From: an uncultured Alphaproteobacteria bacterium
GTDB lineage: Bacteria; Pseudomonadota; Alphaproteobacteria; HIMB59; GCA-002718135
Length of the DNA stretch: 47,974 nt
Assembly: GCA_902605135.1 (NCBI GenBank)
Contig: CACLBK010000006.1
Coordinates: 1 to 47,974 of the forward strand
Direction of reading: 5' to 3'
A model generated the notes under the pieces. That model worked only from the letters and a program-made list of their open reading frames with translations. It was not told where the DNA came from and did no database searches. Positions 650-4,831 of the stretch are shown here, in pieces; positions within the stretch are counted from its first letter, which is position 1; each line of letters begins with the position of its first letter. The translations under genes were made by a program, and so were the position numbers.

Positions 650-2355
650 TGAAAAAAATAAAAAGAGAAGCTTATGCCGATATGTATGGCCCAACAACTG
701 GAGATAAAATTAGACTTGCTGACACAGAACTTTTTATTGAAGTAGAAAAAGATTTAACAACTTACGGTGAAGAAGTAAAATTTGGTGGAGGAAAAGTCAT
801 TCGAGATGGAATGGGGCAGTCTCAAGTATCCCGACAAGATGGTGCGGTCGATACAGTTATAACAAACGCTTTAATTGTTGATGTAAAAGGAATTTATAAA
901 GCTGATATTGGTCTTAAAGATGGTTTAATTAATGAGATTGGAAAGGCTGGTAATCCAGATACACAACCAAATGTAAATATTATTATAGGACCTGGAACAG
1001 AAATTATTGCCGGTGAGGGAAAAATTATTACAGCAGGAGGCTTTGATAGTCATATTCATTTTATTTGCCCTCAACAAATTGATGATGCACTTCATTCAGG
1101 TATAACAACGATGTTAGGGGGAGGAACTGGTCCTGCTCATGGAACATTAGCAACAACTGTTACCCCGGGACCATGGCACATAGAGAGAATGATACAATCA
1201 GCTGATGCTTTTTCTATGAACTTAGCTTTTGCAGGTAAAGGAAATAGTTCATTACCAAAAGCTCTCGAAGAACAAGTAATTGCAGGAGCAAGTTCTCTCA
1301 AATTACATGAAGATTGGGGTACAACTCCAGCAGCTATCGATAATTGTTTAAATGTTGCTGATGATCATGACATACAAGTTATGATTCATACTGATACATT
1401 AAATGAAAGTGGATTTGTAGAAAGCACGATTAAGGCAATTAATGGAAGAACTATTCACGCTTTTCACACAGAGGGAGCAGGAGGAGGTCATGCGCCTGAT
1501 ATTATAAAAGTATGTGGTGAAGAATATGTTATTCCATCTTCTACTAACCCAACAAGACCTTACACTGTTAATACAGTTGAGGAGCACTTAGATATGTTAA
1601 TGGTTTGTCATCACCTTGATAAATCAATACCTGAAGATGTTGCATTTGCTGAAAGTCGAATTCGAAAAGAAACAATTGCCGCTGAAGATATACTGCATGA
1701 TATGGGTGCATTTTCAATTATTGCATCTGATAGTCAAGCAATGGGTCGTGTTGGTGAAGTTATTATAAGAACATGGCAAACAGCACATAAAATGAAAGTG
1801 CAACGTGGACAATTAAAGGAAGAGCAGGGTGATAATGATAATTTACGTGTTAAACGTTATATTGCAAAATATACAATTAATCCTGCCATTGCTCATGGTA
1901 TTTCCGATCATATTGGCAGTATTGAAAAAAATAAACGTGCCGATATAGTCATTTGGGATACTGCTTTTTTTGGTGTTAAACCTGAAATGGTTTTGCAAGG
2001 TGGAAGTATTTCTTGTTCGCAAATGGGTGATCCTAATGCTTCTATTCCAACACCTCAACCTGTGTATTCTCGGCCAATGTTTTCTTCTTTTGGAAAATCA
2101 TTAGAAAAATCTACTGCAACATTTGTAAGTAAAGCTTCTTTAGATAAAAATTCATTCAAAAATTCTGGAATTAGCAAATCTTTATTGCCAGTTAAAAATA
2201 TTAGAAAAATTTCTAAAAAAGATATGGTATTAAATGATTATTGTCCAAATATAGAAGTTAATCCAGAAACTTATGAAGTTAAGGCAGATGGAGAATTAAT
2301 TACCTGTGAACCAGCTAAAATACTACCTTTAGCTCAACGTTATTTCATGTATTAA
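649..2355 (+). CDS. ureC: Urease alpha subunit, catalytic
   Basis: UreC carries the di-nickel active site. All ligands are present, each one residue later than in the Klebsiella enzyme: His135 and His137 (SHIHF), the Lys218 that is carbamylated and His220 (KLHEDWG), His247 ([12 protein letters not shown]), His273 ([12 protein letters not shown]), the flap-region His321/His322 (MVCHHLD) and Asp361 ([10 protein letters not shown]). The 568-residue length is normal. Nothing is truncated or substituted, so an active urease is expected. It lies in the ureABC(D)EFG operon and relies on the downstream accessory genes for nickel loading. Confidence 0.98.
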
Positions 2356-2808: not shown

Positions 2809-3444
2809 ATGAAAAAAATAAAAGATCCTTTACAAATATTACAAATATGGTTTTCATCATCTTTTCCTGTTGGTTCCTACGCATACTCACATGGTTTGGA
2901 AGCACTAATAGATGATGATAAAATTAAAAATAGAGATGATGTCAGAGAATATTTAAAAGCATTATTATTTTATGGCAGTCTTCGAAATGATTATATTTTT
3001 TTAAAATCTGTATATATGGGTGAAGAAATTAATGACTTAATTTTAGCAAGTGCCTCTTCAAAAGAAAGACATACAGAAATGATTGATATGGGTAATTCAT
3101 TTCGAAAAATAATGAAAGATAGTTGGGAGCTAGTATTAGAAGAAAATACATCTTTTGTTTATTGTATTAGCAAAGCAGCTCTTCATTTTAATATAAAATT
3201 TGATGACTTAATTAAATTTTATCTCCAGTCATATATTTCAAACTTAATTAATGTTTGTGTAAAGCATATTCCTATGTCACAAAAAGATGGACAAATATTA
3301 AATGTTAATTTTATTGATCAAATACAAAAATTTTTAGATCAATCATACCAATTAACTCTTAAAGATATTGGAACGAGTTTTTTTATTGGTGATATTTTTG
3401 CAATTAAACATGAAAATTTAGATTCAAGGATTTATTTAACATGA
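2809..3444 (+). CDS. ureF: Urease accessory protein UreF
   Basis: UreF acts with UreD and UreG as a gatekeeper for GTP-dependent nickel insertion. The product is about 211 residues, all-alpha, with the family signature [21 protein letters not shown] near the N-terminus. The frame stays open upstream to 2743, but that part overlaps ureE; the ATG at 2809, one base after the ureE stop, puts the family N-terminus in place and is chosen as the start. The stop overlaps the ureG ATG (ATGA). Confidence 0.93.
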
Positions 3445-4052
3445 ACAATATAAATGGTCCGTTAAAAGTTGGTATAGGTGGAGGAATAGGAACAGGAAAA
3501 ACTAGCTTAACAGAAGCTTTATGCCGTCATTTATCAAACAGAATTTCAATGGCAGTAATATCAAATGATATTTATACAACTGAAGATGCAGAATATTTAA
3601 TGAGAGCTCAAGTTCTTCCTATGGAAAGAATTAAAGGCGTTGAAACAGGTGGGTGTCCCCATACGGCTATCCGAGAAGATTGTTCAATTAATTTACTAGC
3701 CGTTGATGAAATGAAAAATAAATTTCCTGATTTAGAATTAATACTTATTGAATCAGGTGGCGATAATTTGGCAGCTACTTTTAGTCCAGAGTTAGTCGAT
3801 TTAACAATTTATATGATTGATGTTGCCCAAGGAGCTGACATTCCAAGAAAAAAAGCTCCGGCAATAAAAAAATCAGATTTGTTGGTAGTTAATAAAGTTG
3901 ATTTAGCACCTCATGTCGATGTTAATATTGATCAAATGGAAGAGGATGTAAAGGAAGCCAGAAATGGGTTACCATATGTTTTCGGTGAAATGAAAAATAA
4001 TAACGGAATAGAAAAAATTTCTGACTTCTTAATTTCTCAAGGTGGGATTTAA
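3441..4052 (+). CDS. ureG: Urease accessory GTPase UreG
   Basis: UreG is the SIMIBI-class GTPase that powers nickel transfer from UreE to urease. Visible motifs are the P-loop GGGIGTGKT (residues 13-21), the nickel-binding CPH (Cys72-Pro-His74) within [19 protein letters not shown], and the guanine-specificity motif NKVDL. At 203 residues it is of normal size. It is the last gene of the urease operon; its 3' end overlaps the convergent gene at 4049-4309 by 4 nt and no terminator is seen between them. Confidence 0.97.
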
Positions 4053-4309
4053 TATTCTTGCTTCTCTAAAGTGTACACAGTGTCTGTACTATTAAATTTT
4101 GAATCAAATTCTTTTGATTTTGGATCTTCAAATAAAGCATAAAATTTATCTTGGTCAGTAACATTTGCCATACTAATAACATGACCATCTTTTACAAAAG
4201 CCATATCAAAGCCATCTGTGTATTTAGCTATATCTTCTTTAAAGTAATTATATAATTCCATATAATCATCTTTGGTAAATGTTCCTTTCGTAACTACACA
4301 TAAGTTCAT
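4049..4309 (-). CDS. Unknown 86-residue protein behind a SAM-type riboswitch
   Basis: I do not recognise this protein by name. It is small and acidic, with no signal peptide or membrane segment, and its hydrophobic pattern suggests alternating strands and helices of about 85 residues, as in small ferredoxin-like or antibiotic-biosynthesis-monooxygenase-fold proteins; that fold guess is weak. The ATG at 4307-4309 has a GGAG-containing site about 8 nt upstream. Directly upstream lie an intrinsic terminator and a SAM-II/SAM-V-like aptamer, so expression should fall when S-adenosylmethionine is abundant. That implies a role tied to methionine, SAM or methyl-group metabolism, by inference only. 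Confidence 0.75.
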
Positions 4310-4326
4310 ATTTTCTCCATTTATTC

Positions 4327-4363
4327 AAAAAAAAATCCTCACCATTTCTCTTAATGGGAGGAT
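4327..4363 (-). terminator. Intrinsic terminator in the leader of the 86-residue gene
   Basis: Read on the minus strand, ATCCTC-CCATT pairs with AATGG-T-GAGGAT: 6 bp plus 5 bp around one bulged T, with a loop of about 6 nt, followed by nine T. It ends about 17 nt before the ATG of the downstream gene, so it is a leader attenuator rather than a gene-end terminator. The 5' arm contains CTC, the same trinucleotide that the aptamer uses in its pseudoknot. Confidence 0.85.
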
Positions 4364-4377
4364 AATTTTATACGTAT

Positions 4378-4421
4378 CTCATTTTAGCTGCTCGTGAACC
4401 GCAATAGAGTCAAATCGTTCT
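4378..4421 (-). ncRNA. SAM-II/SAM-V-like riboswitch aptamer
   Basis: On the minus strand a short P1 (GAAC 4420-4417 with GTTC 4399-4396) encloses the loop ATTTGACTCTATTGC, followed after 7 nt by GCTAAAATGAG. From memory, the SAM-II core has a loop of the form ATTTAACCGTATTGC and a tail of the form GCTAAAAAGG, with the loop CC pairing the tail GG. Here the pair is changed on both sides: loop CTC (4409-4407) pairs with tail GAG (4380-4378), which is compensatory. The position in a leader just before an intrinsic terminator supports a regulatory RNA. P1 is short; SAM-V versus SAM-II cannot be settled by eye. Confidence 0.72.
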
Positions 4422-4546: not shown

Positions 4547-4831
4547 ATGAAAATTTTAGATAATATAAATAACTTTTTTACTCAAAATACAAAAAAGTCA
4601 GATGAAGAGCATACTATTCCTGAAAATCTTCGAAGCAAAGAATTAGAATGGAAATTAGCTCTACTTGTAAGAAATATCGATGATGTTGAAGATATAGATC
4701 TAAAATTTGTTAGTGTTTCCAAAATAGATATGGGTACCAAAAAAGATTTATTTACATCTTATAGGTTGGATTTCAATGGAAGAGAAAAATTAAATCAATT
4801 CAAAAAAAAATACAAAAATATACTTCTGTAA
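4547..4831 (+). CDS. Hypothetical protein, 94 residues
   Basis: I do not recognise it. The product is soluble-looking and charged, with no signal peptide or membrane helix. The N-terminal half is polar (NTKKSDEEH) and the C-terminus is lysine-rich (KKKYKN). It stands alone between a divergent riboswitch-controlled gene and a convergent membrane-protein gene. The ATG at 4547 lacks a strong Shine-Dalgarno sequence. Codon use looks like the neighbours, so it is probably a real gene, but function is unknown. Confidence 0.6.
   Translation: MKILDNINNFFTQNTKKSDEEHTIPENLRSKELEWKLALLVRNIDDVEDIDLKFVSVSKIDMGTKKDLFTSYRLDFNGREKLNQFKKKYKNILL

Follow-up and report, generated by a model that had tools for sequence, protein, structure and literature searches.

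The window analysed here, a stretch of 47,974 nucleotides from a contig of an uncultured alphaproteobacterium (host genome 1.16 Mb, 68% complete), carries on its reverse strand a gene for an 86-residue protein that overlaps ureG tail to tail by 4 bases and stands behind what looks, on sequence grounds, like a compact SAM-II-type aptamer and then an intrinsic terminator (Table 1). The existence of the gene is confirmed; 45 of the 48 copies in the genus are of full or nearly full length and stop-free, while the other three have an internal stop (G055), a frameshift (G041) or a truncation by the contig end (G052). Across 14 diverse homologues, M1, N2, C4, V6, D52, D69, D76 and Y79 are invariant. 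Broken copies are found in order genomes G041, G055, G120 and G139, so either the cells can do without the gene or some of the assemblies contain errors. Two other features of the window may be recorded. A 94-aa ORF of no known family (4547-4831, forward strand) lies between the leader and a membrane-protein gene and recurs at 24/47 related loci. At 798-1087 (reverse strand), antisense to the gene of the large urease subunit, Rfam 5_ureB_sRNA (RF02514) has a match of 102 bits that may simply reflect conserved coding sequence.

Table 1. Features of the locus (positions in the window) and tandem leaders elsewhere in the order (positions in their own loci).
Feature	Position	Strand	Basis
ureG, convergent neighbour in 47/47 loci	3441..4052	+	ORF and locus comparison
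Gene of 86-aa protein, predicted ferredoxin-like dimeric alpha+beta barrel kind	4049..4309	-	ORF, homologues, predicted fold
Shine-Dalgarno-like GGAG	4315..4318	-	read from sequence
Intrinsic terminator: hairpin with one bulge, then 9 T	4327..4363	-	sequence reading and folding; hairpin also in the related leaders examined
Putative compact SAM-II-type aptamer	4378..4420	-	core motif, P1 covariation, models R1 and R2
P2 pseudoknot 3' strand GAG	4378..4380	-	P2 pairing count
P1 3' strand GTTC	4396..4399	-	leader measurement and covariation
P2 pseudoknot 5' strand CTC	4407..4409	-	weaker: 65.2% of cells paired over all leader types, lowered in part by alignment shifts between types
P1 5' strand GAAC	4417..4420	-	leader measurement and covariation
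-10-like TATTAT; transcript start would fall near P1	4431..4436	-	read from sequence; inferred
Tandem leaders: compact SAM-II-type aptamer, terminator, second SAM-II/V-like aptamer by ribosome site	L157:885-1066; L158:1545-1725; L161:1017-1169 with L215

The core pattern GATTT-N6-10-TTGC-N10-22-GCTAAA occurs once in the window (4383-4416, reverse strand), against a chance expectation of 0.02, and between it and the start codon lies the terminator hairpin (-13.3 kcal/mol, z -2.9; 1/200 shuffles equally good). The leader is fixed to the gene within the genus, lying directly upstream of it in 47/47 genomes with the leader assembled, and the first 30 loci all have ACGATTT..CT.TATTGC, AGCTAAAA.GAGATACG, a terminator hairpin and the start codon. 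Among the loci of the gene that were examined there are 23 distinct leader forms; across the scanned leaders GATTT, TTGC and GCTAAA are kept while the flanks drift. When 162 genomes of the order were scanned with R1, a covariance model made for the aptamer, 48 strong matches (>80 bits) came up: 47 precede the gene by about 50-60 bases and one, in G039, precedes a broken copy; in G052, the 48th gene-bearing genome of the genus, the contig stops within the gene. R1 also gave 14 weak matches (20-25 bits), of which those in G117 and G111 precede metX and that on G005:C66 is a tandem leader; the remaining 11 lack the full core and were taken as chance. At the G039 locus (L156) aptamer and terminator are mostly retained, with one mismatch in P1 and one in P2, while the gene itself stays intact for just a few codons.

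Neither Rfam family that might have named this leader does so. SAM-II (RF00521) has no match in the window (at the gathering cut-off or at E up to 10) or in the window's own genome, and SAM-V (RF01826) likewise has none in either, in a genome scan whose search controls failed to register; across 111 genomes, RF01826 gave weak matches in four, all below cut-off. Both were therefore rejected as identifiers of the leader. The conserved parts GATTT, TTGC and GCTAAA are nonetheless present in order, with an L1 of SAM-II length, and a motif scan of 30 loci retrieved with RF00521 from other alphaproteobacteria found the core in 28, its parts arranged in the same way (P1 - GATTTG - P2 - TTGC - P1' - L3 - GCTAAA - P2'). 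For a second model, R2, we took nine leaders that precede other genes (metX in six cases, rhodanese genes in two, a homocysteine methyltransferase gene in one), all nine downstream genes having been checked, and no leader of the 86-aa gene; L140 was excluded from it. In the window, R2 places the leader first (24.5 bits, E 3.3e-4; next place 11.4 bits), and in the window's own genome the leader is the sole match at E<=0.01. At that threshold, R2 has matches in 83/102 genomes of the genus and recovers 40 of the 48 leaders of the 86-aa gene (G039 included) with 24-30 bits, eight falling short; matches of the metX kind, only some of which were inspected in place, reach 64-75 bits, tandem leaders 37-40 bits, and G005:C71 has two matches (54 and 66 bits), one of them the rhodanese leader L213. 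The window leader is thus homologous to the leaders of metX and homocysteine-methyltransferase genes. The sequence-only reading had given the gene a ligand-responsive leader of its own, and a leader of SAM-II type is indeed there, by core, by R2 match and by its presence at 47/47 genus loci.

Covariation supports the P1 helix. Over 22 sequences, 98.9% of 88 cells are paired, against 34-66% in slid controls, two-sided cells number 30 vs 10.5 in shuffles, and four of five measures exceed most or all shuffles; the fifth, a count of pairs changed on both sides, fails to rise above them (3 vs 2.7; 326/500). P2 is less secure than P1, with two-sided changes in 3/3 pairs. Leaders of the 86-aa gene mostly have a P1 of 4-6 bp (3 bp in L005 and G039), and their L3 spans 5-8 nt; the first aptamer of the tandem leaders and the G111 metX leader have a P1 of 4 bp and an L3 of 7 nt. 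The genus's own metX leaders combine a P1 of 4-6 bp with a 10-12 nt L3; a single genus thus has both L3 lengths, and a shorter L3 would suit a shorter helix.

Leaders of this kind also precede other genes in the order. The core pattern has matches in 149/162 genomes, with few in a reversed-pattern control, although chance matches inside other sequences are among the matches listed. Eight places were inspected. Four precede metX (L208 according to NCBIfam, and L209, L210 and L214, which resemble L208); L211 (by Pfam) and L213 (by resemblance) stand before rhodanese genes, L212 stands before a homocysteine S-methyltransferase gene (PF02574), and the eighth, L215, is a tandem leader's second aptamer. 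The sequence-only reading is supported in that methionine genes of the genus have the same kind of leader. In G110, genes for OsmC and an O-succinylhomoserine sulfhydrylase lie behind an RF00521 match. Rfam misses L157, L158, L160, L161 and L167 even at E up to 0.5, and two of these, L160 and L167, are metX leaders; since it overlooks the compact type in this order, these bacteria may have larger SAM regulons than have been counted. The tandem leader of G005 is divided over two contig ends (L161 and L215). Those at L157 and L158 precede an ORF of ~59 aa without a Pfam family (L158 tested), in surroundings that look mobile.

We looked for an antiterminator by two energies. In the window leader none is predicted by hairpin energy (-0.2 kcal/mol, with 331/500 shuffles equally good), the duplex energy of -2.7 is equalled by 939/1000 shuffles, and the P2-forming strand is unable to pair stably with the 5' arm of the terminator. 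Within the genus's tandem leaders the same strand can, by hairpin energy, alternatively pair with that arm as a classical antiterminator (G006 -12.8, 0/500 shuffles as good; G033 -6.6, 12/500; G005 -7.7, 14/500), and by duplex energy G006 stands out (26/1000) and G033 does not (411/1000). The shuffles used for all these leaders preserve base composition only. A minimum-energy fold of the whole window leader, by a method that cannot form pseudoknots, lacks P1 and is unexceptional (z -1.88; 10/200 shuffles as good). Before the 3' arm of the terminator exists, ACGATTT may pair with GAGATACGT (-4.9 kcal/mol), a pairing that is a possible SAM-free form and would leave the terminator untouched. As no antiterminator was found for this leader, the switching step is something that we infer. 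The available text of two papers already describes SAM-II leaders predicted to end transcription (PMC9373788; PMC5069961), and SAM-dependent termination is the likeliest reading here, though it leaves the SAM-free state unexplained.

The missing antiterminator, the failure of Rfam and the short P1 and L3 would also fit an aptamer that descends from SAM-II and has taken another ligand (SAH or a related nucleoside) or has decayed, the terminator acting constitutively, as would the P1 or P2 mismatches in a few leaders of intact genes (L005, L004). We nevertheless think this improbable, for GATTT, TTGC and GCTAAA have been retained amid drifting flanks and, in a single case, it is the genome in which the gene is most fully lost (G039) that has mismatches in both helices.

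Sequence searches gave the protein no family: Pfam (including ABM, PF03992, and related families), NCBIfam, PHROGs and the PDB returned nothing significant. AlphaFold2 predicts a b-a-b-b-a-b ferredoxin-like model (pLDDT 95.4, pTM 0.81; of the five models, two scored poorly, with 66 and 52). Foldseek ranks SnoaB and ABM-like proteins highest (E 9e-5), and VIA gives Z 9.1, with an rmsd of 2.2-2.4 over 83-85 residues in its three best rows. The ferredoxin-like fold guessed from the sequence alone is therefore one on which predicted model and structural matches agree, and we regard the protein as a predicted ferredoxin-like subunit of the ABM/SnoaB kind. Designed proteins, ribosome chains (presumably S6) and amidase domains also score Z 7.5-8.4 against the model; with such folds so common, the fold gives no function.

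The protein occurs in 49/110 genomes of the family, 48 of them from the window's genus (n=102) and the other G001. A profile search of the order found it in 67/162 genomes, the 18 added ones belonging to a second, sister family (64-71% identity among 14 full-length copies compared), and in a class-wide sample it was found in 4/289 genomes, three of the same order and G280. Named close relatives, recorded as uncultured Alphaproteobacteria or as Pelagibacteraceae AG-337-I02, we take to belong to the HIMB59/AEGEAN-169 lineage. Two Anaerolineales contigs (L083, L084) hold homologues of 33-40% identity to the window protein that resemble the G001 copy, which suggests either transfer across phyla or contigs binned into the wrong genome. 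The viral contigs, phages and plasmids searched hold no homologue.

Outside the genus, the aptamer does not accompany the protein. The sister family offers 18 leader regions, of which 16 are readable (one begins inside the gene and one lacks a clear gene), and a motif scan found the SAM-II core in none of the 16, nor at G001, G280 or either Anaerolineales locus. The sequence-only reading had proposed a SAM-cycle component and had named homologues without the aptamer as what would speak against it. Such homologues exist, and they speak against the proposal for the protein family as a whole, though not for this genus, of which the SAM link is a trait.

These aptamer-free homologues lend weight to a second account, in which the leader senses SAM and the barrel protein has no role in the methyl cycle, serving instead as an accessory (in stress, detoxification or signalling) that is useful when sulfur is short; we place its probability somewhat below even. 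One sister-family copy has ABM, ydhR and SnoaL-like small proteins as neighbours, which fits this account, and in the accessible parts of a study of Pelagibacter the gene most upregulated under sulfur limitation is osmC, not a methionine enzyme (PMC5069961). At that sister-family locus (L092:993-2410 and 3035-3629), a DUF3764-like protein, below cut-off, also stands beside the homologue, and the ABM, ydhR and DUF3764-like neighbours share its broad fold. With an hhalign probability of 26 over 29 columns, kinship of the 86-aa protein with the DUF3764-like divergent neighbour of the sister family was rejected. One observation hints at a metabolic relationship and so runs against the accessory role: in three urease genomes (G035, G036 and G057; loci L226, L230 and L229) a homocysteine S-methyltransferase gene (PF02574, E 3.5e-44 for G035; the others by likeness) occupies the same slot beside ureG, in the same orientation, as the 86-aa gene, though this may represent one event and the stretch examined at these loci lacks the SAM-II core.

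The urease neighbourhood suggests a further account, that the gene is functionally linked to urease (e.g., in nickel handling) and its SAM link incidental. Within the genus the gene is present in 48/61 ureG-positive and 0/41 ureG-negative genomes (Fisher 2e-17, relatedness ignored), its aligned 3' end lies 3-13 bases from that of ureG in 47/47 loci, and a nickel-binding ferredoxin-like protein, SCO4226, is known from what is available of PMC4186839. Of the 13 ureG-positive genomes without the gene, one (G039) has a remnant, three have the homocysteine S-methyltransferase and nine have other neighbours. Yet the genomes are related, and co-occurrence follows from physical linkage: because the two genes are neighbours in 47/47 loci, it is evidence of joint inheritance and not of joint function. 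The gene, moreover, lies on the opposite strand behind its own leader, and urease genes were not noticed at five homologue loci outside the genus (two sister-family, two Anaerolineales and one G001). We therefore consider a urease function unlikely. The earlier placement of the gene outside the urease operon stands as regards strand and leader, but has to be set beside its constant physical tie to ureG.

Taken with the homology of its leader to switches before methionine genes, from which it follows that the protein is probably made when SAM is low, the account that we favour, and think fairly probable, is that the gene is a genus-specific member of the SAM-II regulon. The transcript would probably start with the compact pseudoknot aptamer, the terminator coming right after it. 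With SAM plentiful, the aptamer would fold around SAM, P2 (CUC:GAG) would close and transcription would most likely end at the terminator; with SAM low, read-through would yield a small, presumably dimeric alpha+beta-barrel protein that would help the cell to respond when methionine or sulfur runs short. Our best guess at its role is small-molecule chemistry, on a thiol or an oxidised organosulfur compound, around the invariant Cys4. A bolder version, which we hold tentatively and think rather doubtful, is that this orphan, cysteine-bearing barrel family is a low-SAM response protein that helps to recover or spare methionine sulfur, brought in a marine lineage under a compact, Rfam-invisible SAM-II switch that governs a terminator without a classical antiterminator.

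What is new here is a probable target of a compact SAM-II-type switch, the fold of the protein being already known. Within the parts available of the literature considered (including PMC2704228, PMC6061858, PMC5069961, PMC9373788 and PMC11508383), none was found that joins SAM-II with the 86-aa protein or with ABM proteins, and in the portion available of PMC10308909, on AEGEAN-169 (= HIMB59), nothing matched on urease, riboswitch, methionine, metX or sulfur. An unnamed protein family is thereby assigned to a regulon that marine bacteria probably control through a metabolite, and its function becomes directly testable (is the protein produced when SAM falls?).

Compared with known systems, the protein shares its fold with the ABM-like dimeric barrels (SnoaB 3kg0, YgiN 1r6y, PA3566 1x7v and the marine 2od6 and 2od4; Z 7.9-9.1), but these lack a sequence match to it and have 97-108 residues vs 86. 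The leader shares with SAM-II (RF00521, SAM_alpha) the GATTT...TTGC...GCTAAA core, a P1 around L1, a pseudoknot partner after GCTAAA and, in most leaders, a single G ahead of the P1 3' strand; it differs in lying below Rfam detection and in showing no antiterminator, and six Rfam-detected examples (L129, L132, L134, L137, L139 and L140) have a P1 of 6 bp and an L3 of 11 nt. SAM-V (RF01826) is a related pseudoknot, as far as the accessible text of PMC6061858 goes, but in the window leader the aptamer is directly followed by a terminator rather than by a ribosome site. A published parallel is that of Pelagibacter, for which the available sections of PMC5069961 describe SAM-II and SAM-V switches ahead of bhmT, metX, metY and mmuM, and a rise of osmC, bhmT, metY and mmuM transcripts under sulfur limitation. 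An arrangement like that of its tandem SAM-II/SAM-V bhmT leader occurs in L157, L158 and the split leader of G005, whereas the window leader consists of the first aptamer and the terminator only.
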